From: Albugo candida
Lineage: Eukaryota; Oomycota; Peronosporomycetes; Albuginales; Albuginaceae
Assembly: GCA_905220665.1 (NCBI GenBank)
Contig: CAJNAR010000152.1
Span: 310,001 to 374,000, forward strand
Length of the DNA: 64,000 nt
Reading direction: 5' to 3'
Part shown: positions 1-35,797 of the stretch, piece after piece
Layout of the letters: every line of letters starts with the position of its first letter
Position numbering within the stretch: position 1 is the first letter of the stretch
Made by a program: the position numbers and the translations under genes
Notes under the pieces: generated by a model
The model's input: the letters and a program-made list of their open reading frames with translations, nothing else
Databases searched by the model: none
What the model was told of the DNA's origin: nothing

Positions 1-3000
1 CTTCAGACATATCCGACGTGTTCAGCTCTTCGTCGTTGTAATAGTTGGCGACGAAATCTTCCTTCGTTGGCCATGTGTCGCTTTCACGAAAAAAGTCTTG
101 CAGACTTCGAACGTCGAAAAGTGTAGCAAACGTTTTTTGAAATGTTCGATGTGGTTCATCCACCATGCCAATATTGTACCAAACGTTCTGCGTACTCGGA
201 TGGCGAGTAGCAGCTTCATAATGTGATTCTTGGTCGCAGTGAAACCACATCGGTTGCTCCATGTAGTACTGACGGCGTTGTGAAACATTTAAATCTGATA
301 TTGAAATGCTCCAATCCATCTGATGCCACATTCTAAATGCTTGTTTCCACCATGACGATATGCGCTCCCATTGAACCATTTTCCCATGTCGATTTGGTGC
401 GATGGTGAATATATCCATCGGCTTGTGTGGTCCAAAGGAAGGTTGGATAAGTTGTAATAATTCCGTCGAAGCAGTTGTCCAATTCGCAGAATAATTTGTT
501 GACGCATCGGATGCGAACTGATGAAGGAATTGAATACGTTGTAGCTTTAATCGTTTCACCAAAAAAGGAACTTGTAGTCCACCATCTTGTCGACGAAGAT
601 ATAAAAATTCTTTGCTGAGTAGGTGAACATGTTTTGAATCTTTTTTGTGTTTCCGACCAAGCACAAATCGATTTAACATCGATTGCCACTGTCGAATTGT
701 CGCTGCTGGTATGTCCACGTGCATCGTGTAATGCCACAAACGTGATAAGTAAACAGTAGTCGACCACGAACAGTTCTTGCTCGTCGAAACCATACACCAA
801 ACCCATCGTAAAAACGCTTGCGAGAGTTGAAATAACCATCGAATGAGTCGATTTCTGGCCGAACGGAATACCCAAATACTTGACCGAATCCTCCGGACCC
901 ATTATGGTCAAATTGGGAATACGTGGACACGGCATGGTCCGATTCAACGAGAGCAAAGATGATTTACTCAAGTTGAGTTTCGCACCCGATCCATCGCAAT
1001 AGACTTGGACGAGTTCGAGTTGCGTCAAAACACCATTTGTTGTCTCTGAAAGCAATGTCGAATCGTCCGCAAAAAATAATCCAGTTGCGACAGTCGTGCG
1101 ATTAATCCAAAAGCCATGTTCTTCATGTTGGTAAAGTAAATTTCCCAAAGGTTCGATCGTCATCAGAAAAAGTAATGCTGAGAGAGGATCACCTTGTTTC
1201 ACTCCACGTTGTGGTGTAATGGACGGTGTGATATTTCCATTAATCATCAACTGCGCCTTTGTGTTATTGTACAAAAGACGAACCCAGTCGATGAAACTTT
1301 TTCCAACGCCCATTTTTTCCAGAACGCGAAACATGTACGTCCAATTGACTCGATCATAAGATTTCTCAAAGTCAAGAAAAGTCGCATAAGCTTCCTCCCC
1401 ACGATGAGTGACCAAGTCTTGAATGTCGGTCAGATGTCGAATAGGGTGATGCATTTACCTTCCTCGCACGAATGCTTTTTGATCTTGATGGATCAATTTT
1501 GGCAAGAAACGTTGCAATCGATACTCCAACACTTTTGAAAGTACTTTTACGTCGACGCAAAGTAGTGCGATCGGTCGATAGTTGCCAGGATCACCTCGTG
1601 ATCCTTTTTTGTATAAAAGTGTGATTGCCGAGTGACGTTCTGATCGAATTAAAATTCCTCTGTCCAGCTTATATTCGAACACGATCTTCAGACACTCGCC
1701 AAACGTTTCCGGATCAAGCTGATAAAATGCAGCTGGTATTCCATCCATACCTGGAGAAGAACTACTCCGCATGTGCTTGATCGCTTCCGCCATCTCGGTC
1801 GTACTTAACCGAGTTGAGAGACGGTCTTGCTCTGCTGAGGCAAGGGAAACGTGAATCGAATCGAGCAACTTTTTTTGCTTTCTTGCACATGGAACATTTG
1901 AGTCGGTCTCAGAGCTATAAACAGATCCCATGACGCCACCCCAATGATCTCTGAATTCGTCAATAATCTCCCTCGGGTTCGATGTCACGGTACCACATTT
2001 TTTGATGACATTTTCGATCGGCACGCGACGACAAGAACTATCCGGAGGGCGAAAAAAATGCTTTGAAGAGTTCTCCATATGCTTCACGTGATGGTCGAAA
2101 CTTTCATCTTGGTTGTATTTCGCATTGTTTTCGACTGAAATTCTAAATTGTTGGAGACTCGATTCGTAAAAATACCGTGACTCATTGGTGTCTTGGATGC
2201 GATATCGAGCTGCTGCGACTTCCAAAACACGCTGGCTAGACTCAACATCACGTCGGCTATCTTTTGCAGCCTTTTTTTCAATGATTTGAAGCTGTTTCTT
2301 GATTTTCGTCTTCCAACTTTCCCACATTTTACCGGGATTCGAAGTTGTCCGCAACTGTGCGAGCACCAAATTCGCTTCCAATTTGATTGCTTCGACAACT
2401 TTAGAATATTCAAATAGTCGTAATGAACATTTCCAATATCCTCGTCCCGGTGATTGAGTTGGATTTGCAAAAGTTACTTTTTGTGCCAGATGATCTCCCG
2501 CATGTCGTGGACGAAAGTACTCAGAGGTTTTGTATACCATATTGAATAGCTCTTCCGACATGCAGATATAATCTAATCGATTCTTGCGCGGTAATGGTCC
2601 TGTAAATACTTTTTCAGTCGGATGTTGAATTCGCCAAGCGTCGACCACACCCAACTGTGAAAGCCATTCAAAACACGCTAATCGACTTGGTTCGTGTCGT
2701 ATTGTTCCACTCGAAGCATCAATAGATGGATCGAGTGGTGAGTTGAAATCACCAAACACGATATGTATTGCGGTCGATTCGAAAGTGTTGGAAAGCAATA
2801 AATCATAAAAACCCACTCGTTCCTCGGCCTTGACCGGTGCATATACATTGTGAATATACACCGGTGCATCGTGAATGAGAAGACGCAGAACCAAATAGCG
2901 ATTTCGAATGCTTCGTTCGGTGAGTTCTTCAGCTGTTGTATAAACGGGAAAGTCCGAACGAAGGATTGTCATGACGCCGCCACTGCGGTTTTGAGTCGGA

Positions 3001-3263
3001 TGGAGAAAAGCACTGTTGTGGTCATTGACAAACATTTTGTGCTGCATTTTTGAGGATAATAAAAACTGAAATGAGTCCAGTTGATTGTGATCGTGAAACT
3101 TGGTTTCTTGAACACAACAAATGGAGTGTTCTGATAGAATGTGGTGGATAAAAAGATGACCATTTTTATAAATTCCATTAACATTCACCGTGAGTGCTGA
3201 GATATTGTTCCACGTTGAAATAATCGAGGAGCCCTTAGCATTCACGCTGAAGTGGACCGGCAA
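1..3263 (-). pseudogene. E1 ORF2 (endonuclease-reverse transcriptase), broken, partial
   Basis: Encodes the LINE replication protein. The open N-terminal part (3263 down to 1455, about 600 aa) holds the APE-type endonuclease with VQETKF, VYAP, GDFNSPLDPS, RLDYI and GDH motifs, and the first part of the reverse transcriptase. A nonsense codon TAA at 1455-1457 replaces TCA of E3. The frame then continues with FLDFEKSYDRV, GVKQGDPLSALLF and FADDS until a one-base loss near 831 and a net 13-base loss near 755 shift it. The rest, to position 1, is recognisable only in switching frames. No ATG opens the frame; the first codon after the upstream stop is TTG at 3263. Not functional as it stands. Confidence 0.88.
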
Positions 3264-5702
3264 TCAGCCTCATTTCACCATCTTCTTTTGAGAGGTGAAG
3301 TGTTGCTTTCTCTTCAGGGAAAAAGCTGAGATTGACTGAGAGCTCGCCGATATCGCCACAGAGAAGTCCTTGCCATTTACCACCAAACCATTGCGACCAA
3401 CACTTTATGCCCACGTCGGAGCGTAACAACAAGATAAGCACATTGATGGGGAGTAAACGACAATGGTGACCCGGAATCCAGATCACTGGTCTATCGGTGA
3501 GATAGTGGATCCAGTGATCGTTTGTGTAAAATGTCGGGGCAGTAGACATAAATAACAATTCCAATAATGCGAGAGCTTTGGTCGCCCGAGTCAAACCGTG
3601 AACAGTGTCCGGCACTGACTTCCACCAAGGCATCACTTTCTCGAACAATACAGCTCTCTTTAGGGAACTTTTCCACCAACGTGGCGATTCCATCGCGTCG
3701 TAAATGTGACATCTTCGCCGAGATTATGCGCCGCAAAAACGCGATTGATGAGAAGTAGATGTGCTACTTCGTCCAACGCAGGATCATTCGACTCCATGCA
3801 TGAAATAAGCACCCCATGCATGGTGATGGGATGATCTAATGCTGCCCGGATGATTTGGTCCGGGTTAGTACAAAATTGTACCAGCCGACGCACATGAGGG
3901 ATGCACGCATCGGCTTGGACCAGCTTGTCCGGTCGAAGCTGGTGGAGTGCATTTTTGGAATCCATTTCCATGAGCTCTCCGATTTCACCAATTCGAGTTG
4001 GTCGCTCTGCTTTTTCCACCGTTGTATGACGCTTCTTATAAAAGTGTGCCGCCTCTTTCGAGTGGCTATCTCTTTTGGCATCCGTGCTTTCACGGGAATA
4101 ATTTGAATGCGGTTGCCATGCGCCGGATTGGCAACCGCTTGGACTTCTTCGACATCCACCTCCATTGTTGCGAGCACAGCAAAGTAATTACTAGTCGCCA
4201 ACGTTGGGAGCGCACGAGGTGGTGCATTGGAAACCATTTGGTCGAACGGCTCAGTCCGATTACGCTTTCCTCGTGTCCATGCCAGCTGCATGTATGTGTC
4301 ACCATCCTTCTCCACCCGTGGATGGGAAGATGATTGACTTTTTAATTGGAGGATTTGGGGGAGTAGGCTGAGAGAAGTCTGGTGCCTCTGGTGGTGAGAT
4401 AGAGGGAGGACTGTTGAGCTCCAACTAAATTTGGTCGGAATTTTTTCGCTCCGGTCGCTTCGTCTCCAATTCCTGAATTTGAACTGTCTTCTCCACCTTT
4501 TTTGGGACCACCGCGACTGTCTTTGGCGTGGTTTTTTGTTTTTGTTTTTCTTGTTGCGTTTTTGCTTGTTTTTGATTATGAGGTTGAGTGTGAGTTGTGT
4601 TTGGTTCTTTGTTGTTGTTGCTCTTTTTCTTTTCGTTTGATTGCTGCCGTGTTCCCGAGGCTAATGCAGCACCCAAATCCAAGCAGTAAGGACCACGTTG
4701 GCCAAAACGTGGTCGTTCCGTTGGAATAGGAGCGTTCTTACCCCGTACTGGATAGAGCTGCTTGTCGTAAACGATTTGTTCAATCACTTTACCAACTCTA
4801 ACCAGTTGTTGGGGACACGTCAAACAACCAAAGTAAACTCGGCAAGTCGACATCACCACTTCCTTAGTGGGAATCGTCTCGCGAAAGGTGTCATGCACCA
4901 CTTGAAACCCGAGTTTGTGAAGAGCGCGGAGAATGTTGTTCCGTTCTCCCTCCACGCCCACACAGAACACATCGAGGTAGTACTTTTCCCCAAGGATAGT
5001 CACCGGCTGACACTCCAACTGCTGGCAGGCATCCGCCGTGGTGACCATCACCCTAATGTTGCCCCCAGGCATTTTCGACACCTGAGCGATTGACCGGCTC
5101 TCCAGTAGGCTTTCAAAACCCGGATTACCGTGGTCTCGCATCAGGGATGTTAGGATTTTCCCATTTGAAGTACGGGTCAAGGACTGGCCCGTCTCCAAGA
5201 CCATCGGGAAGGTTGCTTTCCAGATTTGGAAAGGTCTTGCTGCTTCCAATTTCGCAGACAGAACAGACCAATCCAGGTGCTCCCCATCAGCATATAGCTG
5301 CAGTATAGCCTCGATATCCGAGGCTTTCGGCTTTGCGAGCTCGACCCGAAATTTCGCCCGAGCTCTAGCCTGGTCCTTACGCAAGGACTCCTGTGACTTT
5401 ATAAGGTCAGCCAAAGTGGGACTTTTAGTGTCGTCCACACTTGCAGTTGCCTTTGGGTCACCCTGTGACGAGGCAACGACAGTACCGCATGTACCACCGG
5501 TACCAGATCCGACTCCGGTAGTACCGGTATTACCCTGTACCGTCACACATGGGGTGGAGGTACTTTCCACGTCATCACACAGGGGTGATGACTCATCAAC
5601 AATCATGCAATCGTTCAAAACAGGGTGACTCATGAGGGTTGCCACGTCACTACAAGTGGACGCTAGCACCCTTGGTTGTGTCGATATGTCGACTTGGACC
5701 AT
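3235..5702 (-). pseudogene. E1 ORF1, broken
   Basis: The lineage A ORF1 starts MVQVDISTQP at 5702 and would end at 3235, overlapping the ORF2 frame by 29 bp. It is interrupted by a nonsense TAG at 4425-4427 (TCG in E3), a one-base loss near 4060 and a further frame change near 3663. The N-terminal third is acidic and Ser/Thr-rich. It is followed by a conserved region with PGGN(I/L)RVMV and YYLDVF, then a Gln/Lys/Asn-rich linker, then a conserved C-terminal region with LDHPITMHGVL and WIPGHHCRLL. No CCHC knuckle is visible. By position it is the nucleic-acid-binding ORF1 protein typical of LINEs; that role is inferred. Confidence 0.8.
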
Positions 5703-5794
5703 TGTTTTCGAGAGGAAAGAGTTGAAAAAAGTAGTTTTTCGAGTTGTTTTGTACTAACTTGGCGGGTTACGTAGTAGCCGGCAAATTGAGAAGT

Positions 5795-5812
5795 GCTCCT
5801 TTGGCTCAGTTG
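5795..5812 (+). repeat. tRNA-Met nt 1-18 fragment (target-site duplication) between E1 and E2
   Basis: GCTCCTTTGGCTCAGTTG, identical to nucleotides 1-18 of the intact tRNA-Met at 35723. It lies exactly between the 5' end of E1 and the 3' end of E2. Read as the left copy of the duplication made when E2 inserted. Confidence 0.92.
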
Positions 5813-5971
5813 AAGTTGTCTATATTACTAGAATTAGACGTAAATGACTTCTCTAAATGCCTAGACTACAATAAATAACATATAATACATGCAGATGTGG
5901 CTTGAAAAGTCCCAAAGAGTGGACTAGGTGCGGTTGATGACGGTTGAGTAGACTAGCCACTCAACTCAGAC

Positions 5972-8900
5972 TTATGAGCGCGCACGCCTTCGTATCTTGA
6001 GAAGATCTGATCTCCCGGAGAAATATCCTTTTGCTGAACCTGATTGCAATAGGGCGAGTAAAATCATCTGAAGCTGATCAAGCTGTGTGGGATCATAGCA
6101 CTGACGTTGATAAAACCGAATATGGGCGCTGAAAGTGCTGTAGATTACCGAAACAGCTGGTCCTGTTGGTGTTGAAGATACTTGGTCGAAAAGTCGTCTA
6201 TTCCGATCCGTCCAGATGAAGTGGATCGAAATGGCAACCAATGCAAACCAAAGATCTTCCAACACCATCCTGAATGGCTTCCACCTATCCCGAAGGAGAG
6301 GAAGTCGTAGACACGCAATGTGCGACCACTTAGGTCGAGCTGAAAAGAAAGCTGTCCAAGAAGTAAATAGCTCCTCCCAAATCGGGTGTGTCCTACTACA
6401 GTCGAAAAACAGATGCTGGTAACTTTCCACCTCACCACAATGCTCCTGTGTGCACAGGATGATTTCCGGATGAGCTTGCTTCAGAAACCAGAACCGGGAT
6501 CGCACTGGTAAAATTGAATATGTAAGTCGGAGCTGAATGTCCGAGTATATTGGTAATAAACGCCCGCGAAGACGTTTAAAACCCGTTGAGAAATCCTTCA
6601 CCCAAGTCGAAGCACTTGGCCGGTCTCTCTCTGGTATGTGCAGCAGCAGTGGGTGAGGCTTATCCGGTGGTTCTGCTTTCCCAACAACTCGAAAGAGTTG
6701 ATTCCTAGGAATAGTCGGAAAGAAAACCTTCGTATTCGAAATTTAAATGCCAAACTGGAACCAAATACGCCTTTGCAATGGAACTCTCTGGACACAACAA
6801 AACGCCCTCCGGTTGAATTCGACGTAAACTTTGAGTAGCTTCCACGTACAAGCGTCGTAAAAGCTTTGTCTTGGCTACTTCCGCTGAAATTCCAACTGTA
6901 TGCGTACTGAAACGCAAGACAAACTCGGAAGACGAATTGAACCAAGTTGATCTTCCACCGAACAAATCACGTAGAGAACGGATACGGAACGCTTGAGCGA
7001 ACTGCATCCTAAAAGTACGCGCAGGTTCCGGGACCATTCCCATGCATCGACGATGAGCAACCGCACTAGTAGAGCGTTGCCGTTGCTCAAACTGAAGATG
7101 AGAATCCACCTGCAGCCAGACAGGAGCATTTAACATAACGATGTATTGCTCCTGTAAGACAAGGTCTGGGGTGTGAGTTCCCACTTACTCTGACTCCACC
7201 AAACGCACGTCTGCTTCCACCACGATGACGCTCCATTCCAACGAACCATGTTAGCATGCCGACGAGGTGATATCGTTAAGATATCGAGCGGCTTGAACGG
7301 TCCAAAGTTGGGTAAGATGCTCTTCACAATTTCCATACCAGGCAATGTCCAGTTGCTTGGAACAGGTCTACTGCAATGTAGTGCAAATTGTTGTAGAAAT
7401 TGGAGTCGTTGCTTCATTATTTGCTTCTCGATCATCGGAACCTGTAGACCACCTTGTGAATAAGGCAGATATAAAAGTTCCGATCGAATGAGCTGCACGT
7501 GTGTTGAATCCCGCTCATACTTTCGACTCAACACAAATCGATTTAACATCGATTGCCAACGTCGCAGTAAATGTTGCGGGATATTAACATGTGTCGTAAA
7601 ATGCCATAATCGTGACAAAACCATGGTCTGCGCCACCAGTAAACGTCCACGCACCGTTCTTGCTCGACGAAACCACTGACGAAAACCACCATAGAAACGA
7701 TCTTCTAGGAATTCAATCATCAAATCACTCACTGGTGATTGACTGAATGGAATTCCCAAATACTTGACCGACTCGCACCGTGATAGAACTTTCACTAAAG
7801 CGAACGGCTGACAGACTTAATGACGGTTAAGAGGAAGTAAAGTTGACTTTGAAAGATTTAACTTTGCTCCTGAACCATCACAATAGTGTTGAACGACATC
7901 AAGCTGAGCCTCCACCCCACCGAGCGAAGACGATAACAAAGTCGAGTCGTCCGCAAAGAATAAACTGGTTGATGTATCCATTGGAGTGATACAAATACCA
8001 GGTCCTTCATTTCTCCGCAACAAATTTCCCAACGGCTCAATAGTCATGAGAAAGAGCAATGCGGAGAGTGGATCACCTTGTTTGACTCCGCGAGAAGGAG
8101 TGATCTTTGGTGAAAGCGTTCCATTCAACAACAGCGAAACATTCGTGTTGGTATATAGAAGCTTTGTCCACTTGATAAACGAATTTCCGCAGTTCATTTT
8201 CGAAAGCACAGCAAACATGTACGACCAATCCACTCGATCGTACGCTTTCTCAAAATCGAGAAAGGTTGCATATGCTTCCTCGCCACGATGAGTGATCAAA
8301 TATTGTAGATCACTCATGTATCGAATGTGGTGGTGGATGGATCTGCCTCTCAGAAATGCTTTTTGGTCTTCGTGAATCAATTTCGGAAGCATTTTCTGGA
8401 GTCGATAAACAAGTACCTTTGACAGCACTTTCACATCCACGCAGATTAATGCAATAGGCCGATAGTTTCCAGGATCTGCTCGAGATCCTTTTTTATAAAG
8501 CAACGTGATTGCCGAACTACGCTGAGAGCGCAGCAAAGAGCCGCGACGAAGTTGATCGTCAAAGACAATTTGCAAACATTCACCAAAGACACTCGGAGCA
8601 AGTTGGTAGAATGCTGCCGGCAATCCATCCATTCCAGGTGATGAGTGTCCGCGCATACTTTTGATGGCTCCTTCCATTTCCGATTTAGTTAATGGAGCAG
8701 AGAGAAACGACTCATCAGAGCTGTTTAATGTTTTGGTAATTGAGTCGAGAAGCGTATTCTGTTTTTTAATGCAGGGACGGAGTGGGACTCCAGCAGAACT
8801 TTCCTTATCACCCATAATTCCACCCCAATGATCGGTGAACTGAAGGGTGATTTCAAGTGGATTCTTTGTTACTTTGCCATTCGGAAAGAGGACTTCTTCC

Positions 8901-10163
8901 AATGGAACCCGATGACAAGTTGAATCCAGCGGACGAAAGAAGTATCTCGATGATTTCTCCACATTTCGCATCTGGTGGTCGAACGCGGAGTCTTGATTGT
9001 ACTTTGACGACACTCGTTCGTGATAAGAATGAAGAGCGTCCTTGTAAAGTTTCTTTTCTGTGCTCTGATCTGATATTCGATAGGCGGATGCAGCATGTTC
9101 CTACTCCGATTGAGCTCGAATGAGCTCATCTTCCTCTTGACGTCGAATCATCTTTTGAATTTGCTGAAGTAAACGCTTCATATACTTCTTCCAACGCTCC
9201 CAATCCTTTCCGGGACTGGAAGAAGCACGAAGCTTTTCCCAAATGCGTTCCGCGTCGACTTTGATCGCCTCGATGATTACTGGGTACTCGAATAGTGAGA
9301 GAGGACATTTCCAGTAACCACGGCCCTGAAGTTGGCTCGGATTTGCAAACTTGAGTACATGTGCCAAATGATCCCCCGTGTGAGGAAGAGTGGCATAATT
9401 TGAATCCTTATAAATTGTACGGAATAGGTGTTCCGACAAAAGGATGTAATCCAATCGATTACGTCGTGGCTGAGGGCCAGTAAAGATACGCTCTTCGGGA
9501 TGCTGGTGACGCCAAGCATCGAGAACACCCAAGTTTGAAAGCCATTCTAAGCACGAGAGGCGACTTGGCTCATGGCGATATGCACCACTAGAACAATCCA
9601 GACTTGGACAGAGAGTTGTGTTGAGATCTCCACAGACGATATGTGATGCATTTGCTTCGAATGATCCAATTGGAAGCTGATCGAAAAAAGGTTTTCGTTC
9701 CGTTGAATCCACCGGAGCATAAACGTTGTGGACGTATACTGGTGCTCCATGAACCACCAAGCGAACTACCAGATAACGATCTTGAACTGTGACATTGTGC
9801 ACGGCTTCAGCAGTTTGAAATCCAGGAAAATCGTTCCGGATAATGGTCATAACACCGTTTACTCGTTCCCGAGAGGGGTGAGAGTGAAGACTATTCGTAT
9901 CACTGATAAACGATTTAGTTCTGAAGTTCGATGTCATATGAAAGCGAAACGTCTCCAGGTGCTGACGATTACGAAAACGTGTATCCTGCACGCAACAAAG
10001 TGCGTATTTTGAAAATGTATGTTGGATTGCAAGGTGACCATTCTTTTTGACACTCGTTTGTATTGACTGATAGAATGGTTTTATTGGTCCAAGAATTGTA
10101 ATCCGATAAGCTTCCCTTAATACTGAACAGAGAGAGCACCCACAACGAGTGTTTGTACTCCAT
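5972..10163 (-). pseudogene. E2 ORF2 (endonuclease-reverse transcriptase), broken
   Basis: Same protein as E6 ORF2, opening with ATG at 10163 (MEYKHSLWV) inside the end of ORF1. Lesions seen by comparison with E5/E6: an indel near 10045 that destroys NTNGIIKNG; a nonsense TAG near 9101 (GAG TAG GAA); an in-frame 6-base loss near 9010; a nonsense TAA at 7817; a one-base loss near 7155; and a one-base gain near 6755. Endonuclease (VQDTRF, VYAP, CGDLNT), RT (FLDFEKAYDRV, GVKQGDPLSALLF, FADDS) and zinc-finger (ILCTQEHC) motifs are all still readable in pieces. Confidence 0.88.
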
Positions 10164-26265: not shown

Positions 26266-28672
26266 CGACGAGTTTGTGAATACCGTCTTCTTCCTTCAGT
26301 TGTAGTATGGAAGCTTCGTCGGTAAGAAAACGGTTGGATGACTGAAGCTGCACCAAGTCGTCGAAAATGGGACTTTCCCACTTTGCGTCAAACCACTCGC
26401 TGAGGCAAAGTGTACCCAACGGTGAACGCAAAATTTGCAACAACACATTCGTGTGAAGCAGACGACAGTGATGAGCTGGAATCCATACCACTGGATGACC
26501 AGTAACGTACTGGATCCAGTGGTCACTGTGATATATGGTTGGTGCCGTGCTTATCAACATCAGCTCAAAGAACGCGAGCGAGTTTGTTGCTCGTGTCAAT
26601 TCCTCCACTGCAGCTGACGCATTCCACCAGTTGTCCACCGCTGCGAGCATAACTTTCCGAACAGCCGAAACGGAACCACCGACTTTCTTCGACCACTTCT
26701 TGCTAAACGTGGTATCCGAATTCGGTTTGGAAGCTGCCAATACACGATTTATTGTGTGTATTCGCACCACTTGATCCAAGCATGGGTCATTGGACCTCAT
26801 GCAACGATTGAGCACTCCATGTAGTGCAATCGGATGATCTAATGCAAATTGGAGAATACTGTCTCCGTTGGATGTGAAACCAACATGTTTACTTGCTTTC
26901 GCAACGTAAACATCCTCTTTCAACAAAGTATCCGGTCGAGGAGGAGACTGAGCTGTTTTCACATCTTGAATTAAGAAATCCACTACTTCTGCCACACGAG
27001 TCGGACGATCGTCCTTTTCAATTCGGGTGTGGTTTTTTTTGATGAAGTGAGCCGCTTCTTTAGAATTGGCCAAATCGTTTTTCACCACAAGTTTGGATGG
27101 TACAACCTGGTACCTTTTCCCAAAGTCGTCCTTCGTACTTACGTCAATTTTGACAAAGTCGACGTCGACGGAGCCGAGCACATTGAAATAATTGCTCGTA
27201 GCCAAACCTTCCAATGATTTGGGAGGGGCATTGCTCAATAAGCTTTGAAAGCGATCAATAGATCGATTACGCTTGTTGCGATTTCGAACTGGAGTCCACA
27301 TGTCTTCGGCGGACTTCGACTCGTCTTGTTGGGTAATATTTGCTCCATTTTCCTCGACAGCCTGAACAGCTGAGGGAATTTTCTCCTGAGTCGGAACAGA
27401 GTTTTGTAATACTGGAATTGTCGCATCGTCAGCGGTGGTACCAGGGGTGTCTTGAAGATTAGATTGCTTGTTTTCAAGACATTGTTTAGACACTTCCGGT
27501 AATTTGCTGGTGTTTTTTTCCTGCTTTGGTGTCGTTTTCGACTTCATGGGCTGGCTTTTGACCGATGAAGCGGTTTGTTTCGTCGGTTTATGATTCGGTT
27601 GAGGAGTTTTCACCGGCAGCAGTAAGCAGTGTGGACTGCGCTGACCCATCCTCAACCGATCAACCGGGAGGGGAGAAGCTTTCCCTCGAGCCAAATAGTA
27701 TCTCCCCTCGATACATATTTGCTCACAAACTTTTCCGCCAACCATTAGCTGTTCAGGACAGCTTGTGTCGCGGAAATAAACTCTCCAAGTCGACATAGCA
27801 AGTCGTCTGGAAGCCACTGCTTCACGAAAATTCTCATACAGAACATCGCACCCAAGACGATGCAAAGCCGACGCAATGTTGAGTGTGGGCATTTCCGGTC
27901 CAATTCCGAAAATATCCAAGAAAAATCTCGAACCAAGAATATCGAATTCACGGAATGAGTATTTGTTCCCAAGAATCGTAACAGTTTCGTGGGCCAATTT
28001 ATGGCAAACTTCCTCTTCGGTAACGAGGAGTCTCAAATTACCACCTGGCAATTTAGCCAATTGGCCAATTTTCCCTGCTTCGAAAAGCTCGTCGACAATC
28101 ACATTACCGTGATCTCGAACGAAGGATTGCAAAATATGCGCTGGTGGGATTCGAACCAGAGCCTGACCAGTTTCCAGCACCACCGAGAATTTTGCACTGG
28201 GTAGAGCGAAGGGTTTTGCTGCAGTCAAGTGTGCAGACAAAATCTCCCAACTTGGGCGGCCATTTTCGAAAAGCTTTTCAATAGCGCGAAGATCCGCAGC
28301 TAATGGCTTAGGCATTTCAACCTTCCATGTTGCTTTTTTAGCCGCTTTATCCTTGCGGATTTCCTCGTTGCCCTTCAGGATATCCGCCAAGGTAGCGCGG
28401 TTTTCTTGTTTAACCGGTTTTTTTACCGATACAGGAGGTAATGACGCGGTCGCGTCATCGATGTCCATAGGGATCGATGGAATCTCCTTGGGTAGAATAC
28501 GAAATGGCTCGACAGTCATGGTCACATCTGATTGGACCGTTTCAGATTCCGTGGATTCTGAGTGGCAGGTGGCCGCATCCAAAGAAACATTTTCCGTTGG
28601 AACTGGTGCACGAGTTGTGACATCGTCGGACGAGGTAACGATGGGTAAACGCGAAATGTCGATAGAAACCAT
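26240..28672 (-). CDS. E5 ORF1 protein of LINE
   Basis: 810 aa starting MVSIDISRLP at 28672, the ATG matched in position and sequence by all other ORF1 copies (MV-x-(I/V)DIS). The open frame extends upstream without an ATG and that extension is ignored. Layout: acidic Ser/Thr-rich N-terminus; basic patch (KAAKKATWK); conserved PGGNLRLLVTEEEVC; then FFLDIFGIG ... helix ... STWRVYFRDTSC ... YYLARGK, which by eye resembles a beta-alpha-beta RRM-like fold; a low-complexity linker; and a C-terminal conserved region (LDHPIALHGVL, WIPAHHCRLL). No zinc knuckle seen. Probable RNA-binding partner of ORF2, by analogy only. It ends LSVQY-stop, in a different frame from ORF2. Confidence 0.82.
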   Translation of the reverse strand: MVSIDISRLPIVTSSDDVTTRAPVPTENVSLDAATCHSESTESETVQSDVTMTVEPFRILPKEIPSIPMDIDDATASLPPVSVKKPVKQENRATLADILKGNEEIRKDKAAKKATWKVEMPKPLAADLRAIEKLFENGRPSWEILSAHLTAAKPFALPSAKFSVVLETGQALVRIPPAHILQSFVRDHGNVIVDELFEAGKIGQLAKLPGGNLRLLVTEEEVCHKLAHETVTILGNKYSFREFDILGSRFFLDIFGIGPEMPTLNIASALHRLGCDVLYENFREAVASRRLAMSTWRVYFRDTSCPEQLMVGGKVCEQICIEGRYYLARGKASPLPVDRLRMGQRSPHCLLLPVKTPQPNHKPTKQTASSVKSQPMKSKTTPKQEKNTSKLPEVSKQCLENKQSNLQDTPGTTADDATIPVLQNSVPTQEKIPSAVQAVEENGANITQQDESKSAEDMWTPVRNRNKRNRSIDRFQSLLSNAPPKSLEGLATSNYFNVLGSVDVDFVKIDVSTKDDFGKRYQVVPSKLVVKNDLANSKEAAHFIKKNHTRIEKDDRPTRVAEVVDFLIQDVKTAQSPPRPDTLLKEDVYVAKASKHVGFTSNGDSILQFALDHPIALHGVLNRCMRSNDPCLDQVVRIHTINRVLAASKPNSDTTFSKKWSKKVGGSVSAVRKVMLAAVDNWWNASAAVEELTRATNSLAFFELMLISTAPTIYHSDHWIQYVTGHPVVWIPAHHCRLLHTNVLLQILRSPLGTLCLSEWFDAKWESPIFDDLVQLQSSNRFLTDEASILQLKEEDGIHKLVVGSLSVQY

Positions 28673-28773
28673 TCTGTTGGAGAGAATAGTAGTCAATAAG
28701 GGTGGTGTGGTTGAAAGTTGGTTGTTGTGTATCCGGTTTGCGAGGTCCGTAGCAGCTGGCAAATTGAGAAGTG

Positions 28774-28791
28774 GCTCCTTTGGCTCAGTTG
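28774..28791 (+). repeat. tRNA-Met nt 1-18 fragment between E5 and E6
   Basis: Same 18 bp, preceded by an extra G compared with the junctions of E1-E3. Read as the left target duplication of E6. Confidence 0.92.
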
Positions 28792-28950
28792 AAGTTGTCT
28801 ATATTACTAGAATTAGACGTAAATGACTTCTCTAAATGCCTAAACTACAATAAATAACATATAATACATGCAGATGTGGCTTGAAAAGTCACAAATAGTG
28901 AACTTGGTGCGGTTGAAGACAGTTGAGTAGACTAGCCACTCAGCTCAGAC

Positions 28951-31900
28951 TTATGAGCGCTCACGCCTTCGTATCTTGAGAAGATCTGATCTCCCGGAGA
29001 AATATCTTTTTGCTGAACCTGATTGCAATAAACCGAGCAAAACCGTCTGGAGCTGATCAAGCTGTGCGATATCATAGCACTGACGTTGATAAAACCGAAT
29101 ATGGGCGCTGAATGTGCTGTAGATCACCGAAACAGCTGGTCCTGTTGGTGTTGTAGATACTTGGTCGAAAAGTCGTCTATTCCGATCCGTCCAGATGAAG
29201 TGGATCGAAATGGCAACCAATGCAAACCAAAGATCTTCCAACACCATCCTGAATGGCTTCCACCTGTCTCGAAGGAGAGGAAGTCGTAGGCACGCAATGT
29301 GAGTCCACTTAGGTCGACCTGAAAAGAAAGCTGTCCAAGAAGGAAATAGCTCCTCCCAAATAGGGAATGTCCTACTACAGTCGAAAAACAGATGCTGGTA
29401 ACTTTCCACCTCACCACAATGCTCCTGTGTGCACAGGATGATTTCCGGATGAGCTTGCTTCAGAAACCAGAACCGGGATCGCACTGGTAACATTGAATAT
29501 GTAAGTCGGAGCTGAATGTCCGAGTATATTGGTAATAAACGTCCTCGAAGACGTTTAAAACCCGTTGAGAAATCCTTTACCCAAGTCGAAGCACTTGGCC
29601 GGTCTCTCTCTGGTATGTGAAGCAGCAGTGGGTGAGGCTTGTCCGGTGGTTCTGCTTTCCCAACAACTCGAAAGAGTTGATTCCGAGGAATTGTCGGAAA
29701 GAAAACCTTCGTATCCGAAATTTGAATGCCAAACTGAACCGGATACGCCTTTGCAATGGAACGCTCTGGACACAACAAAACGCCCTCCGGTTGAATGCGA
29801 CGTAAAATTTGAGTAGCTTCCACGTACAAGCGTCGTAAAAGCTTTGTCTTGGCTACTTCCGCTGAATTTCCAACTGTATGCGTACTGAAACGCAAGACAA
29901 ACTCGGAAGACGAATTGAACCAAGTTGATCTTCCACCGAACAAATCACGTACAGAACGGATGCGGAACGCTTGAGCGAACTGCATCCTAAAAGTACGCGC
30001 AGGTTCCGGGACCATTCCCATACATCGACGATGAGCAACCGCACTAGTAGAACGTTGCCGTTGCTCAAACTGAAGATGAGAATCCACCTGCAGCCAGACA
30101 GGAGCATTTAACATAACGATGTATTGCTCCTGTGAAGACAAGGTCTGGGGTGTGAGTTCCCACTTACTCTGACTCCACCAAACGCACGTCTGCTTCCACC
30201 ACGATGACGCTACATTCCAACGAACCATGGTAGCGTGCCGACGAGGTGATATCGTTAAGATATCGAGCGGCTTGAACGGTCCAAAGTTGGGTAAGATGTT
30301 CTTCACAATTTCCATACCAGTCAATGTCCAGTTGCTTGGAATAGGTGTACTGGAATGTAGTGCAAATTGTTGTAGAAATTGGAGTCGTTGTTTCATTAAT
30401 TGCTTCTCGATCATCGGAACCTGTAAACCACCTTGTGAATAAGGCAGATATAAAAGTTCCGATCGAATGAGCTGCACGTGTGTTGAATCCCGCTCATACT
30501 TTCGACTCAACACAAATCGATTTAACATCGATTGCCATCGTCGCAGTAAATGTTTCGGGATATTAAAATGTGTCGTAAAATGCCATAATCGTGACAAAAC
30601 CATGGTCTGCGCCACCAGTAAACGTCCACGCACCGTTCTGGCTCGACGAAACCACTGACGAAAACCACCATAGAAACGATCTTCTAGGAATTCAATCATC
30701 AAATCACTCACTGGTGATTGACTGAAAGGAACTCCCAAATACTTGACCGACTCGCACCGTGATAGAACTTTCACTAAAGCAAACGGCTGACAGACTTGAT
30801 GACGGTTAAGAGGAAGTAAAGTTGACTTTGAAAGATTTAACTTTGCTCCTGAACCATCACAATAGTGTTGAACGACATCAAGCTGAGCCTCCACCCCACC
30901 GAGCGAAGACGATAACAAAGTCGAGTCGTCCGCAAAGAATAAACTGGTTGATGTATCCATTGGAGTGATACAAATACCAGGTCCTTCATTTCTCCGCAAC
31001 AAATTTCCCAACGGCACAATAGTCATGAGAAAGAGCAATGCGGAGAGTGGATCACCTTGTTTGACTCCACGAGAAGGAGTGATCTTTGGTGAAAGCGTTC
31101 CATTCAGCAACAGCGAAACATTCGTGTTGGTATATAGAAGCTTTGTCCACTTGATAAACGAATTCCCGCAGTTCATTTTCGAAAGCACAGCAAACATGTA
31201 CGACCAATCCACTCGATCGTACGCTTTCTCAAAATCGAGAAAGGTCGCATATGCTTCCTCACCACGATGAGTGATCAAATCCTGTAGATCACTCATGTAT
31301 CGAATGTGGTGGTGGATGGATCTGCCTCTCAGAAATGCTTTTTGGTCTTCGTGAATCAATTTCGGAAGCATTTTCTGGAGTCGATAGGCAAGTACCTTTG
31401 ACAGCACTTTCACATCCACGCATATTAATGCTATAGGACGATAGTTGCCAGGATCTGCTCGAGATCCTTTTTTATAAAGCAACGTGATTGCCGAACTACG
31501 CTGAGAGCGCAGCATAGAGCCTTGACGAAGTTGATCGTCAAAGACAATTTGCAAACATTCACCAAAGACACTCGGAGCAAGTTGGTAGAATGCTGCCGGC
31601 AATCCATCCATTCCAGGTGATGAGTGTCCGCGCATACTTTTGATGGCTCCTTCCATTTCCGATTTAGTTAGTGGAGCAGAAAGAAACGACTCATCAGAGC
31701 TGTTTAATGTTTTGGTAATTGAATCGATAAGCGTTTGTTGTTTTTGAATGCAAGGACGGAGTGGGACTCCAGCTGAACTTTCCTTATCACCCATAATTCC
31801 ACCCCAATGATCGGTGAACTGAAGGGTGATTTCAAGTGGATTCTTTGATACTTTGCCATTCGGAAGGAGGACTTCTTCCAATGGCACCCGATGACAAGTT

Positions 31901-33147
31901 GAATCCAGCGGACGAAAGAAGTATCTCGATGATTTCTCCACATTTCGCATCTGGTGGTCGAACGCGGAGTCTTGATTGTACTTTGACGAGCTCTTCACTC
32001 GTTCGTGATAAGAATGAAGAGCGTCCTTGTAAATCTTCTTTTCTTTTCTCTGATCGGACATTCGATAGGCGGATGCAGCATGTTCCAACTCCGATTGCGC
32101 TCGAACGATCTCATCTTCCTCTTGACGTCGAATCATTTTTTGAATTTGCTGAAGTAAACGCTTCATATACTTCTTCCAACGCTCCCAATCCTTTCCGGGA
32201 CTGGAAGAAGCACGAAGCTTTTCCAAAATGCGTTCCGCGTCGACTTCGATCGCCTCGATGATTACTGGGTACTCGAATAGTGAGAGAGGACATTTCCAGT
32301 AACCACGGCCCTGAAGTTGGCTCGGATTTGCAAACTTGAGTACATGTGCCAAATGATCCCCCGTGTGAGGAAGGGTGGCATAATTTGAATCCTTATAAAT
32401 TGTACGGAATAGGTGTTCCGACAAAAGGATGTAATCCAATCGATTACGTCGTGGCTGAGGGCCAGTAAAGATACGCTCTTCGGGATGCTGGTGACGCCAA
32501 GCATCGAGAACACCCAAGTTTGAAAGCCATTCCAAGCACGAGAGGCGACTTGGCTCATGGCGATATGCACCACTAGAACAATCCAGACTTGGACAGAGAG
32601 TTGTGTTGAGATCTCCACAGACGATATGTGATGCATTTGCTTCGAATGATCCAATTGGAAGCTGATCGAAAAAAGGTTTTCGTTCCGTTGAATCCACCGG
32701 AGCATAAACGTTGTGGACGTATACTGGTGCTCCATGAACCACCAAGCGAACTACCAGATAACGATCTTGAACTGTGACATTGTGCACGGCTTCAGCAGTT
32801 TGAAATCCAGGAAAATCGTTCCGGATAATGGTCATAACACCGTTTACTCGTTCCCGAGAGGGGTGAGAGTGAAGACTATTCGTATCACTGATAAACGATT
32901 TAGTTCTGAAGTTCGATGTCATATGAAAGCGAAACGTCTCCAGGTGCTGACGATTACGAAAACGTGTATCCTGCACGCAACAAAGTGCGTATTTTGAAAA
33001 TGTATGTTGGATTGCAAGGTGACCATTCTTAATGATTCCGTTTGTATTGACTGATAGAATGGTTTTATTGGTCCAAGAATTGTAATCCGATAAGCTTCCC
33101 TTAATACTGAACAGAAAGAGCACCCACAACGAGTGTTTGTACTCCAT
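28951..33147 (-). CDS. E6 ORF2: APE endonuclease-reverse transcriptase of a LINE
   Basis: 1398 aa from ATG at 33147 (MEYKHSLWV), which lies 47 bp inside ORF1 in the +1 frame. The APE-type endonuclease is N-terminal (about residues 25-265): VNTNG, VQDTRF with Asp60 where the family has Glu, VYAP, CGDLNT, RLDYI, GDH. RT: motif A Asp638 in FLDFEKAYDRV, motif B GVKQGDP from Gly694, motif C Asp740-Asp741 in FADDS. Cys/His motif: Cys1239, Cys1244, His1252, Cys1257. No RNase H recognised. The domain order suits the L1/Tx1 group of LINEs. No stop, frameshift or damaged catalytic residue is seen; this is the best candidate for an active copy. Confidence 0.92.
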   Translation of the reverse strand: MEYKHSLWVLFLFSIKGSLSDYNSWTNKTILSVNTNGIIKNGHLAIQHTFSKYALCCVQDTRFRNRQHLETFRFHMTSNFRTKSFISDTNSLHSHPSRERVNGVMTIIRNDFPGFQTAEAVHNVTVQDRYLVVRLVVHGAPVYVHNVYAPVDSTERKPFFDQLPIGSFEANASHIVCGDLNTTLCPSLDCSSGAYRHEPSRLSCLEWLSNLGVLDAWRHQHPEERIFTGPQPRRNRLDYILLSEHLFRTIYKDSNYATLPHTGDHLAHVLKFANPSQLQGRGYWKCPLSLFEYPVIIEAIEVDAERILEKLRASSSPGKDWERWKKYMKRLLQQIQKMIRRQEEDEIVRAQSELEHAASAYRMSDQRKEKKIYKDALHSYHERVKSSSKYNQDSAFDHQMRNVEKSSRYFFRPLDSTCHRVPLEEVLLPNGKVSKNPLEITLQFTDHWGGIMGDKESSAGVPLRPCIQKQQTLIDSITKTLNSSDESFLSAPLTKSEMEGAIKSMRGHSSPGMDGLPAAFYQLAPSVFGECLQIVFDDQLRQGSMLRSQRSSAITLLYKKGSRADPGNYRPIALICVDVKVLSKVLAYRLQKMLPKLIHEDQKAFLRGRSIHHHIRYMSDLQDLITHRGEEAYATFLDFEKAYDRVDWSYMFAVLSKMNCGNSFIKWTKLLYTNTNVSLLLNGTLSPKITPSRGVKQGDPLSALLFLMTIVPLGNLLRRNEGPGICITPMDTSTSLFFADDSTLLSSSLGGVEAQLDVVQHYCDGSGAKLNLSKSTLLPLNRHQVCQPFALVKVLSRCESVKYLGVPFSQSPVSDLMIEFLEDRFYGGFRQWFRRARTVRGRLLVAQTMVLSRLWHFTTHFNIPKHLLRRWQSMLNRFVLSRKYERDSTHVQLIRSELLYLPYSQGGLQVPMIEKQLMKQRLQFLQQFALHSSTPIPSNWTLTGMEIVKNILPNFGPFKPLDILTISPRRHATMVRWNVASSWWKQTCVWWSQSKWELTPQTLSSQEQYIVMLNAPVWLQVDSHLQFEQRQRSTSAVAHRRCMGMVPEPARTFRMQFAQAFRIRSVRDLFGGRSTWFNSSSEFVLRFSTHTVGNSAEVAKTKLLRRLYVEATQILRRIQPEGVLLCPERSIAKAYPVQFGIQISDTKVFFPTIPRNQLFRVVGKAEPPDKPHPLLLHIPERDRPSASTWVKDFSTGFKRLRGRLLPIYSDIQLRLTYSMLPVRSRFWFLKQAHPEIILCTQEHCGEVESYQHLFFDCSRTFPIWEELFPSWTAFFSGRPKWTHIACLRLPLLRDRWKPFRMVLEDLWFALVAISIHFIWTDRNRRLFDQVSTTPTGPAVSVIYSTFSAHIRFYQRQCYDIAQLDQLQTVLLGLLQSGSAKRYFSGRSDLLKIRRRERS

Positions 33148-35620
33148 CTACTTCGCTCAGTTGCAAAATAGACACTTCATCGGGTAGAAAATTTGTCGAA
33201 AGCTGAATGGCTTCCAAATTGTCGTAAAGGGGACTATCCCACTGCGCATCAAACCACTCACTAAGGCAAAGTGTGCCTAGTGGGGAGCGCAGTATCATAA
33301 TCAGTGCATTGGTGTGTAGTAAGCGACAATGGTGTGTCGGTATCCACAGCACCGGTCGACCAGTGATGTGTTGAATCCAGTGGTCATTATGAAAAACTGC
33401 CGGAGCAGTGCACATCAGCATGAGCTCGAAGAAGGCGAGCGATTTGGTGGCTCGAGTGAGCTCTTCCACTTCAGGTGACTCCGTCCACCAACTATTGGTT
33501 GCGTCAAACATAGCTTGACGTTTTGTTGGAACTTTTCCCCCAATCTTTTTCGACCATTTTGTAATGAAAGTGGTGTCCAAATTCGGCTCGGATGCAGCAA
33601 GTATACGATTGATCGTGTGTACTTGCACCACTTCAGCTAAACACGGATCATTGAATCGCATACCCTTATTGAGCACTCCATGTAATGCAATCGGATGATT
33701 AAATGCGAACTGGAGAAGGCTATCTCCATTGGACGTGAATCCAAGATGCTTCTCCGCCTTGGACACGTGAATGTCCGCTTGGAGAAGCCGATCGGGCTTC
33801 GTTGGGATCTGTGCCGTCAGTAGATCTTCTGCCAACAAGTTCACCACTTCACCCACGCGAGTAGGACGAGAGTCCTTCACGATTTTGGTGTGCTTCTTTG
33901 TGAAAAAATGCGCCGCTTCTTTCGACGTAGCTACATCTTTAGGTACCACAACATTGGTCGGAACGATATGGTAGCGCTTTCCGAACGCTGGATTGGTCGT
34001 TACATCTATCTTTGTATATTCCACATCGATAGTGCTAAGCACATCGAAAAAATTGCTGGTGGCAAGCCCTTCCAATTTTTTTGGAGGAGCTTTGCTGAGC
34101 AGGCTTTTGAAGCTGTCTAACGAGCGGTTTCTTTTGTTGTTTGAGCGAACAACTGTCCAAGAATCCGGTTGTGATTCTTCAGCTTGTTTTGATTCCTCAG
34201 CAGGTTGGGAATCACTGCTTCCAAGCTTCTCTTCCGGTTCTGAAACAGGCGACGTAGATGCCTTCTGGTGATGGTTCGATGTATTAGCTTCGGTAGTTGT
34301 CAGAGGACAGAATGTTTCGTCAGTTTTGGATGTACTTTTAGCATTACTTGAGGTAGATTTTCTTTCTTTATCTTTTATGTGTTGCTGCTCTTGAGCTGGT
34401 TTTGTTGTTTTTCCGGTGCGCTTGCTTGGCACCGATTTAGATTCAGTTGTTGGAGTCGGGGGCTTCGTCGCTCGCTGAGTCGAGTTCGGAGTGTTCACTG
34501 GCAGCAATAAGCAGTGTGGACTGCGCTGACCCATCCTCAATCGCTCAACAGGTAACGGAGCCCCTTTTCCGCGAGCCAAATAGTATCTCCCTTCGATACA
34601 AATTTGTTCGCAAACTTTTCCAGCCACGACCAGAGGTTTAGGACATGACGTGGAGCGAAAATACACTCTCCACGTAGACATGGTTAGCCGTTTAGAAGCT
34701 ACAGCTTCACGAAAGTTTTCATACAAAACATCGCAGCCAAGACGATGCAGTGCTGATGCAACTGTTATTGTGGACATTTCCGGTCCAATTCCGAAAACGT
34801 CCATGAAGTAGCGTGACCCGAGCACATCGAACTCTCGGAAGGAGTACTGGTTCCCCATGAGGGTAACCGTCTCATGAGCCAACTTCTGGCAAACTTCCTC
34901 GCTCGTGACGAGAAGGCGTAAATTACCTCCAGGCAATTTAGCCAGTTGGCCAATTTTCCCCGCATCAAATAACTCGTCAAGGATCTTGTTCCCATGATCT
35001 CTAACGAACGATTGTAGGATTTGGGCGGGTGGTGAGCGTACAAAAGTTTGTCCCGTCTCCAGGACAATCGAAAACTTTGCACTTGGTAGCATAAACGGCT
35101 TTGCTGCCGCCAAGTGTACAGCCAAAACATCCCAGGACGGACGTCCGTCTTGAAAGAGTTGTTCGATAGCACGCAGATCTGATGCTAAAGGTTTTGGCAT
35201 TTCAACCTTCCACTTCGCTTTTTTTACAGCTTTGTCCTTGCGTGCTTCTTCTTGACCTTTCAAGATTTCGGCTAAACTTGGACGATGGTCGGTTTCACAC
35301 GCCGTTTCAACCGGTTTCGAAGCTGATGACGCGGTGTTGTCATCAACCTCCATTGGCACCGGCTGATTGGCAGAAATTGGAGTGGCAGAGAGAGGCGTCT
35401 CTATCTCCATCTCGGTCTCGGATTGGCCAATAACCCCAGCGGACGCGGTAGAGTCCGACGGTAGAGGTGTGGCAGTAGCTGTACTTTCCGCCGGTATAGG
35501 TGTGCGGGTTGCTGGACTTTCCGCCGGTAACGTGTCAGTAACGGACACATTACATGTAGAAGTACTACTCACATCAGGCGATGTAACGATAGGTAAGCTG
35601 GATATGTCGATAGTAACCAT
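33101..35620 (-). CDS. E6 ORF1 protein of LINE
   Basis: 839 aa from ATG at 35620 (MVTIDISSLP). The open frame runs further upstream into the tRNA gene, but the position of MV-x-(I/V)DIS in all copies fixes the start. N-terminal 110 residues are acidic and Ser/Thr/Pro-rich with a short degenerate duplication (TPIPAESTA / TPLPSDSTA). Then come a charged KGQEEARKDKA helix, PGGNLRLLVTSEEVC, and the RRM-like stretch RYFMDVFGIG ... TWRVYFRST ... YYLARGK. A Lys/Ser/Thr-rich linker leads to the conserved C-terminal region (ALHGVLNKGM, WIPTHHCRLL). Function inferred as nucleic-acid binding. It ends LSVQY-stop at 33101. Confidence 0.84.
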   Translation of the reverse strand: MVTIDISSLPIVTSPDVSSTSTCNVSVTDTLPAESPATRTPIPAESTATATPLPSDSTASAGVIGQSETEMEIETPLSATPISANQPVPMEVDDNTASSASKPVETACETDHRPSLAEILKGQEEARKDKAVKKAKWKVEMPKPLASDLRAIEQLFQDGRPSWDVLAVHLAAAKPFMLPSAKFSIVLETGQTFVRSPPAQILQSFVRDHGNKILDELFDAGKIGQLAKLPGGNLRLLVTSEEVCQKLAHETVTLMGNQYSFREFDVLGSRYFMDVFGIGPEMSTITVASALHRLGCDVLYENFREAVASKRLTMSTWRVYFRSTSCPKPLVVAGKVCEQICIEGRYYLARGKGAPLPVERLRMGQRSPHCLLLPVNTPNSTQRATKPPTPTTESKSVPSKRTGKTTKPAQEQQHIKDKERKSTSSNAKSTSKTDETFCPLTTTEANTSNHHQKASTSPVSEPEEKLGSSDSQPAEESKQAEESQPDSWTVVRSNNKRNRSLDSFKSLLSKAPPKKLEGLATSNFFDVLSTIDVEYTKIDVTTNPAFGKRYHIVPTNVVVPKDVATSKEAAHFFTKKHTKIVKDSRPTRVGEVVNLLAEDLLTAQIPTKPDRLLQADIHVSKAEKHLGFTSNGDSLLQFAFNHPIALHGVLNKGMRFNDPCLAEVVQVHTINRILAASEPNLDTTFITKWSKKIGGKVPTKRQAMFDATNSWWTESPEVEELTRATKSLAFFELMLMCTAPAVFHNDHWIQHITGRPVLWIPTHHCRLLHTNALIMILRSPLGTLCLSEWFDAQWDSPLYDNLEAIQLSTNFLPDEVSILQLSEVDGVQTLVVGALSVQY

Positions 35621-35722
35621 TGTCTTCGACAGGAAAGGGTGGAAAAGTGCGTGTTTTTGTTGAAAAGTCGCTTTGTTGTATTCGTTTTGCGGGTTACGTA
35701 GTAGCCGGCAAATTGAGAAGTG

Positions 35723-35795
35723 GCTCCTTTGGCTCAGTTGGTAGAGCGTCAGTCTCATAATCTGAAGGTCGCCAGTTCGATCCTGGCAGGGAGCA
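35723..35795 (+). tRNA. tRNA-Met (CAT), elongator type; target of the LINEs
   Basis: A 73-nt cloverleaf: acceptor GCTCCTT pairs with AGGGAGC plus discriminator A at 35795; D arm GCTC/GAGC; anticodon loop CTCATAA (anticodon CAT at 35756-35758); five-base variable loop; T arm GCCAG/CTGGC with TTCGATC loop. No intron. The anticodon arm GTCAGTCTCATAATCTGA matches eukaryotic elongator tRNA-Met, not initiator. Internal A box (about 35730-35741) and B box (about 35775-35783) are intact. The upstream flank is now LINE E6, so only the internal promoter and downstream terminator are original. Nucleotides 1-18 recur five times to the left at LINE junctions. Confidence 0.96.
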
Positions 35796-35797
35796 CA

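Follow-up and report, generated by a model that had tools for sequence, protein, structure and literature searches.

The 64,000-nucleotide stretch of Albugo candida DNA analysed here (contig CAJNAR010000152.1, positions 310,001 to 374,000, called the window below) carries a tandem array of six long interspersed nuclear elements (LINEs) that ends at an intact tRNA-Met(CAT) gene, the single tRNA gene in the window according to ARAGORN. The six copies, numbered c1 to c6 outward from the tRNA, are all minus-strand elements, antisense to the tRNA, with a second open reading frame (ORF2) containing an apurinic/apyrimidinic (APE) endonuclease and a reverse transcriptase. Nucleotides (nt) 1-18 of the tRNA, GCTCCTTTGGCTCAGTTG, are perfectly repeated at 5795, 12689, 19758, 21913 and 28774, each time between two copies, and nt 19 is matched at none of these five positions. 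The opposite strand of the window has no copy of the 18 nt at up to two mismatches. A pattern consisting of a LINE 5' end, 10-30 nt and a LINE 3' end has four matches in the window and none in 100 shuffles; the junction at 21913 escapes it, since its 5' neighbour (19772-21912) is a 5'-truncated copy. A first-pass annotation of this DNA had described the five repeats and the six antisense copies ending at the tRNA correctly; c6 proves to extend beyond the window. The annotation had taken the array for a single type of LINE; two families are present instead, A (c1, c2 and c5) and B (c3, c4 and c6), which share about 66% DNA identity where they can be aligned and whose ORF2 sequences are about 54% identical. 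The features are the following:

35723-35796, plus strand: tRNA-Met(CAT), intact, the rebuilt target (ARAGORN; RF00005, 67.7 bits at G000:C150:345723-345795, C150 being the contig of the window)
28788-35722, minus strand: LINE copy c1, family A, full length, both reading frames open; its 5' end adjoins the tRNA and its 3' end takes in GTTG at 28788-28791
33101-35620, minus strand: ORF1 of c1, 839 amino acids, no Pfam family
28951-33147, minus strand: ORF2 of c1, 1398 open codons, with APE endonuclease, reverse transcriptase and an L1-like C-terminal region
28774-28787, plus strand: tRNA-Met nt 1-14, target site duplication from c1
21927-28773, minus strand: LINE copy c2, second subfamily of family A, full length, both reading frames open
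21913-21926, plus strand: tRNA-Met nt 1-14, duplication from c2
19772-21912, minus strand: LINE copy c3, family B, 5'-truncated
19758-19771, plus strand: tRNA-Met nt 1-14, duplication from c3
12703-19757, minus strand: LINE copy c4, family B, full length, with ORF2 broken into three frame pieces
12689-12702, plus strand: tRNA-Met nt 1-14, duplication from c4
5809-12688, minus strand: LINE copy c5, family A, full length, with ORF2 broken into two pieces and interrupted by 5 stops
5795-5808, plus strand: tRNA-Met nt 1-14, duplication from c5
1-5794, minus strand: LINE copy c6, family B, decayed; at its 3' end it continues beyond the window, as far as about C150:308,794

The range of targets was examined in the 38.9-Mb assembly (196 contigs). 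A query of 301 bp from the 3' end of c1, free of tRNA letters, gave 41 matches, and 30 of these loci were examined: 25 adjoin a tRNA start, three the A box of a short interspersed nuclear element (SINE), one lies at another site and one lacks the end. The tRNAs at the 25 loci are Met, Phe, Lys, Tyr, Ile, Thr, Asn, Arg and probably Ala. The LINE 5' end, for its part, stands immediately upstream of intact genes for tRNA-Met, -Phe, -Thr (AGT and TGT), -Asn, -Lys, -Arg(CCG), -Ile and -Tyr. At up to three mismatches the genome contains 476 LINE 3' ends and 298 LINE 5' ends, and the reversed-pattern controls give none. Exact tandem LINE-LINE junctions number 57 when duplicated contigs are counted separately (control, 0): 53 have tRNA nt 1-14 between the two elements, three a SINE A box and one another sequence. 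By tRNA type, the 53 are divided into Lys (13), Ala (10, inferred), Ile (7), Tyr (7), Phe (6), Met (5), Thr (4) and Asn (1). A junction was assigned to a tRNA when its 14-mer was at most two mismatches from a listed tRNA start (at most one in the tally of 57), and to a SINE when it was at most three mismatches from CCGTACCCAGCTCA. By these rules the first 100 listed of the 476 3' ends gave 98 distinct rows, identical rows being merged and an extra match inside L034 being counted; 35 are at tRNA starts, five at a SINE A box and 58 elsewhere.

The extent of the duplication can be read from five short copies at non-tRNA sites in which both ends are readable. These are flanked by duplications of 13 bp (L057), 14 bp (L049 and L066) or 15 bp (L053 and L058) that end in ..GCTCA (three copies), ..CCTCA (one) or ..ACACA (one). 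Beyond the duplication the target continues with ATTG, TGAT, TATG, TACT or ACCG. At the LINE end the letters are GTTG instead, and GTTG therefore belongs to the element. These four letters coincide with nt 15-18 in many tRNAs; tRNA-Thr(AGT), however, has GTGG at nt 15-18, yet the junctions there read GTTG, and so do 94 of the 98 classified junctions. Judged from these junctions, the cut is after tRNA nt 14 (AGCTCA^) and the duplication is of about 14 bp. Between the element 5' end and the 14-mer that follows it there are 0, 1, 2 and 3 nt in 26, 18, 9 and 4 of the 57 exact tandem junctions, respectively. Since the duplication spans the distance from the cut back to nt 1, the gene is rebuilt.

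That insertion is sequence-specific and antisense, falls in the A box and D loop of a tRNA and restores the gene by a duplication had already been proposed in the first-pass annotation and is borne out. The annotation's cut between nt 18 and nt 19 and its duplication of 18 bp give way to about 14 bp plus the GTTG of the element. The complete proposal, a LINE specific for tRNA-Met with that cut and duplication, agrees with the five junctions in the window, all of which carry nt 1-18 of tRNA-Met. It is refuted, however, by the flank tables, both through the shorter duplication and through the presence of the same elements at Phe, Lys, Tyr, Thr, Ile, Asn and Arg tRNA genes, and must be considered extremely improbable. 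The annotation had tied its claim to most copies lying next to tRNA-Met; among the copies examined, once the flanks are tabulated, most lie away from it.

How many tRNA genes have been struck was estimated from an Rfam tRNA search in which the best 63 of 1,851 candidates were scored and 65 matches listed. Setting aside the 32 of the 65 rows on C134 and C196 (taken as organellar, by density) and the organelle-like L079 and L089, 31 nuclear tRNA genes were considered. Eighteen of them have a LINE or SINE end directly upstream and are still intact; the end is a full LINE 5' end in 15 cases, a 5'-truncated family B copy in one (L002) and a SINE in two. Occupancy goes with the letters of the A box: an element is present at 18 of the 23 genes whose nt 10-14 read GCTCA, GCTTA or GCCTA, compared with none of the eight that read GCGCA or GTGTA there (p = 1.6e-4). 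All detected genes for elongator Met (2/2), Lys (5/5), Tyr (3/3) and Phe (2/2) are occupied, and the rebuilt genes therefore probably serve the cell, further undetected gene copies being possible.

The proteins of the elements place them among known LINEs. ORF2 matches Exo_endo_phos (1e-6) and RVT_1 (6e-33), both above the cut-offs, and is closer to human L1 ORF2p (E about 1e-50 over residues 26-820) than to R2 (about 1e-19). Its endonuclease is an N-terminal APE domain, in contrast to the restriction-like endonuclease of Utopia and R2-like elements, and no RNase H family was detected in either intact ORF2 at E <= 0.001. By this domain content the elements are classed as APE-type LINEs of the L1-like group. 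A poly(A) 3' tail is typical of the L1 clade; the copies described here end in ..ACAACTTCAAC or ..ACACCTTCAAC without poly(A), and in this respect they depart from the L1 clade proper. Constant 3' ends, 5'-truncated copies and duplications of 13-15 bp are hallmarks of target-primed reverse transcription (TPRT), and point to insertion by this route. Relatives of ORF2 are found in Globisporangium, Plasmopara, Peronospora and Lagenidium. Among named relatives of ORF1, the closest belong to Albugo candida (80% over 41% of the protein; 59%) and A. laibachii (58%); together these relatives point to an oomycete host, most probably an Albugo. The AlphaFold model of ORF1 of c1 gives weak matches to RNA recognition motif (RRM)-like folds at residues 180-353.

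The two families differ in their use of targets. The 58 sites that are neither tRNA nor SINE share the motif aGCTCA before the cut, which is the core of the tRNA A box. Counted from the cut outwards, its bases are present in 57 (A), 53 (C), 45 (T), 33 (C), 29 (G) and 28 (A) of the 58, with nothing notable beyond. Families were assigned by the body of the element and junctions deduplicated by flank, 49 of 104 junctions being too short to assign; the family A sample was picked by tail similarity and the family B sample mostly by contig order, neither by target. Among 25 family A junctions, 21 are in tRNAs, three in a SINE A box and one elsewhere, while the 30 family B junctions comprise three in tRNAs, three in a SINE A box and 24 elsewhere. 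Thus, A boxes are used in 24/25 and 6/30 cases, respectively (Fisher p = 8e-9). Stop-free ORF2 copies occur in both families among the 33 of 2,154 candidates that were scored. An ORF2 piece at C10:340901-344098, 74% identical to family A and with 4 stops, perhaps belongs to a third, older family.

These data bear on whether the endonuclease motif AGCTCA^ is by itself the whole specificity, tRNA insertions being harmless and self-renewing and other insertions being lost, with no recognition of the tRNA or of RNA polymerase III (Pol III). Such an explanation would account for the exact aGCTCA at the non-tRNA sites, nearly all of which carry the family B tail type, and for family B at many unrelated sites, and the renewal of the target after each insertion inflates the tRNA counts. 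However, AGCTCA occurs about 23,000 times per genome (extrapolated from 17 in 28.2 kb) and an A-box-plus-B-box pattern has 114 matches (84 of the 100 listed being SINE-like), yet family A is nearly always found at A boxes; it must therefore, as far as these counts can tell, use more than the hexamer. The deviating boxes of tRNA-Arg(CCG), GCCTAA, and tRNA-Thr(TGT), GGCTTA, are used too. The first is occupied by family A (L017), which points to a cue beyond the hexamer, and the second by a LINE whose family was not assigned. The motif alone is thus a possible but rather doubtful explanation, and the additional cue of family A may be either a longer sequence or the Pol III machinery.

The same point in tRNA genes is occupied by a 318-bp SINE with a tRNA-like head and the B box GGTTCGAATCC, of which 72 3' ends are found at up to three mismatches. 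ARAGORN reports a tRNA-Arg in this SINE at one place (L021 and L022 are the same place) and nothing in the copy from L019. Seven SINE copies are readable at both ends. Their two 14-mers agree in four copies, coming from tRNA-Tyr (L024) or from the A box of the second SINE described below (L050, L053 and L065); they differ by one base in two, at Thr (L019) and Asn (L033); and they come from different tRNAs, Phe and Lys, in one (L021). Intact tRNA-Asn and tRNA-Cys genes follow the 318-bp SINE at L076 and L091. The antisense 3' end of the SINE, GTTAAGGGTGT, resembles GTTGAAGGTGT of family B, and we infer that the SINE is mobilised by these LINEs. A second tRNA-like SINE (AGCTCAGTCGGTTAAGCACTTGAGCG.., for instance at C2:163966-164026) is itself a target, with LINEs and the 318-bp SINE in its A box, and it is this second SINE that the 84 SINE-like matches of the A-box-plus-B-box pattern resemble. 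At C136:5780-6104, three SINE 3' ends at 147-bp spacing form a small satellite from the SINE tail.

Taken together, it is very probable that APE-type LINEs insert by TPRT into the A boxes of tRNA genes and that a duplication of about 14 bp restores the gene, which allows copies to stack. The endonuclease of the element, as the putative specificity factor, would first nick the tRNA-sense strand after nt 14, and the freed 3' end would prime reverse transcription of the element RNA, which ends in ..CAAC. The second cut, in the other strand, would fall at the tRNA 5' boundary, at a distance of 14 nt or slightly more, and gap filling would duplicate nt 1-14, one copy completing the tRNA at the element 5' end and the other staying at the element 3' end. 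The tRNA would retain its internal promoter and receive LINE 5' sequence as its new upstream flank. In this way the target would never be consumed, and the two LINE families and the tRNA-headed SINE could reinsert, stacking outward by age. Later recombination between arrays would mix some of them.

The array of the window agrees with this order. If each insertion rebuilds the tRNA, the newest copy should be the one that adjoins it. When compared with an outside relative (P0001), ORF2 is in one piece without stops in c1 and c2, and truncated without stops in c3; farther out it is in three pieces in c4, two pieces with 5 stops in c5, and three pieces with 1 stop in c6, partly beyond the window. 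Judged by these reading frames, the copies closest to the tRNA are the most intact.

Several observations weigh against this account of insertion and stacking. As counted above, 58 of the 98 classified 3' ends are at neither tRNAs nor SINEs, and family B is mostly outside tRNA genes (24 of 30 sampled copies). The cut in tRNA-Arg(CCG) is one nt further on. No intact tRNA-Ala(AGC) gene was found by pattern search, for which reason Ala is a probable assignment, made from the letters. The outermost junction of the window array (L149:8780-8797, equal to C150:308,780-308,797), situated to the left of the window beside a decayed SINE, reads TCCACCTCAGCTCA followed by GTTG, and its 14-mer (C150:308,780-308,793) matches tRNA-Met nt 1-14 at 8 of 14 positions; c6 consequently has a Met fragment on one side only. 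Among the 14 contigs with at least two exact tandem junctions, nine have a single fragment type and five are mixed: C64 (Tyr and Ile), C71 (Phe and Ile), C72 (Phe and Tyr), C164 (Ala and Lys) and C149 (two Lys forms, one base apart). A copy on C74 beside an intact tRNA-Tyr gene has a Phe fragment at its other end, and the two sides of the SINE copy of L021 carry, as mentioned, Phe and Lys, respectively. From the junctions, mixed arrays are read as not arising from repeated insertion alone, with recombination between arrays or misassembly of small LINE contigs as the probable contributors.

Two further explanations of the arrays depend on these same contigs. If arrays grew by unequal crossing-over or segmental duplication of LINE-tRNA units instead of by repeated insertion, the mixed fragment types, the outermost junction of the window array, the 33.8-kb contig C72, which looks palindromic, and the identical flank shared by C149, C164 and C12 at a tRNA-Lys fragment (duplications, haplotigs or assembly faults) would all be accommodated. 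The window array itself speaks against duplication of a unit: outward from the tRNA the families follow the order A, A, B (truncated), B, A, B without a repeated unit, the lengths differ, divergence is 4-35%, and c1 is nearer to c5 (95.7%) than to its neighbour c2 (88.8%). In addition, the single truncated copy at the other tRNA-Met gene (L002/L043) has the same junctions. Growth by crossing-over is therefore improbable. That the array is an artefact of the assembly is even less likely: some LINE contigs are suspicious (the palindrome of C72 and the mixed C64, C71 and C74), but the window array is part of a contig of 1.09 Mb and has host genes to its right, all its copies are distinct, and the same junctions are found in copies at other tRNAs.

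Repeated insertion with restoration of the target remains the preferred explanation, and it invites a more tentative one, in our opinion possible but doubtful, that the association is a lasting arrangement. A stagger equal to the distance from the A box to nt 1 would renew the target, tRNA-Tyr, -Lys, -Phe and -Met genes would have come to carry the LINE 5' end as their usual upstream region, the Pol III locus would give the LINE an open divergent start, and insertion would be guided by the Pol III complex together with sequence. The first 33 nt of the elements are identical in A copies (c1 and c5) and B copies (c4 and c6) and different in the A copy c2; in the window they are found at 35689-35721, 19725-19757 and 12656-12688. 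This identity despite a differing remainder of the 5' untranslated region is as expected of a shared functional end, and it may reflect either a swap of 5' ends or a common constraint.

Insertion of a target-specific LINE usually harms the gene copy in which it takes place, whereas here the geometry of the cut would repair the target at once. Essential, low-copy tRNA genes could in this way take repeated insertions without loss, and the tRNA gene would keep a layered record of them. The coexistence of a strict and a relaxed family in one genome permits one to ask how a motif preference becomes a near-absolute tRNA specificity, and a LINE that writes beside tRNA genes without breaking them is of interest for gene insertion at safe sites.

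Downstream of the tRNA-Met gene there is a run of about 28 T at 35834-35861 and another of about 20 G at 35942-35961. The host genes beside the array (window 43593-63701) encode an RPN1 proteasome subunit, a phospholipid-translocating ATPase, a prenyltransferase and a DUSP/F-box protein. For a fragment of the RPN1 gene, the best named match came from Phytophthora, at 75%, in a search whose length limits excluded longer, full-length relatives.

With respect to known systems, which are compared here through the accessible parts of the papers cited, a literature search found no described LINE that combines a cut inside a tRNA promoter with a tRNA-restoring duplication. The TRE5 and TRE3 elements of Dictyostelium are APE-type LINEs found at tRNA genes, where several insertions can stack at one gene, and TRE5, like the elements of A. 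candida, lies upstream of and antisense to the tRNA (PMC5911963, PMC5006619). TRE5-A targeting is lost with the B box (PMC5911963, PMC5006619). However, TRE5 and TRE3 insert 31-98 bp upstream or 14-450 bp downstream, over a window and not inside the tRNA (PMC5006619), and they end in poly(A) (PMC5911963, PMC5006619), which is absent here. Instead of a distance of tens of bp, the A. candida elements show 0-3 nt in 57/57 junctions and stand directly before intact tRNAs. NLTR-A of Dictyostelium purpureum is found 2-6 bp upstream of the mature tRNA and has an RNase H after the reverse transcriptase (PMC5006619). In A. candida the corresponding distance is 0-3 nt in the tandem junctions, and no RNase H was found in ORF2. 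The available part of its account describes no cut inside the tRNA and uses 'duplication' once, of another matter (PMC5006619). NLTR-A could be the nearest parallel and may hide the same geometry.

Among oomycetes, the genome paper on A. laibachii gives numbers of tRNAs and describes repeats, without connecting the two in its accessible text (PMC3130010). The tandem 'tRNA' arrays reported from Peronospora effusa and Phytophthora infestans are described as SINE-like or gene repeats of less than 1 kb (PMC11540230, PMC9584435), and look like a different matter from the LINE arrays described here. The non-LTR element Dewa is also linked to a tRNA locus, but it is found in the spacer of tRNA-Leu, not in the gene body, and at one tRNA type (PMC3706591).

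Two other groups share the use of a single point in a gene. Dada DNA transposons, whose hosts are fish and the protist Perkinsus, insert at one point inside many tRNA types, several families doing so at nt 8-13 in the A box (PMC3706591, PMC8869645). They differ in having a DDE transposase, a 6-7 bp duplication and disrupted tRNA genes (PMC3706591, PMC8869645), as against a reverse transcriptase with APE endonuclease, about 14 bp and rebuilt genes in A. candida. Utopia and Keno are LINEs fixed on one point of U2 small nuclear RNA genes, with several families at one target, and oomycete Utopia forms arrays with intact U2 genes (PMC4640811). Utopia, however, has a restriction-like endonuclease and leaves disrupted U2 genes without nt 1-38 (PMC4640811). 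Set beside all these elements, the A. candida LINEs are a real and unusual integration system, a new form of target-specific LINE in which a strict family, a relaxed family and a SINE use one site.

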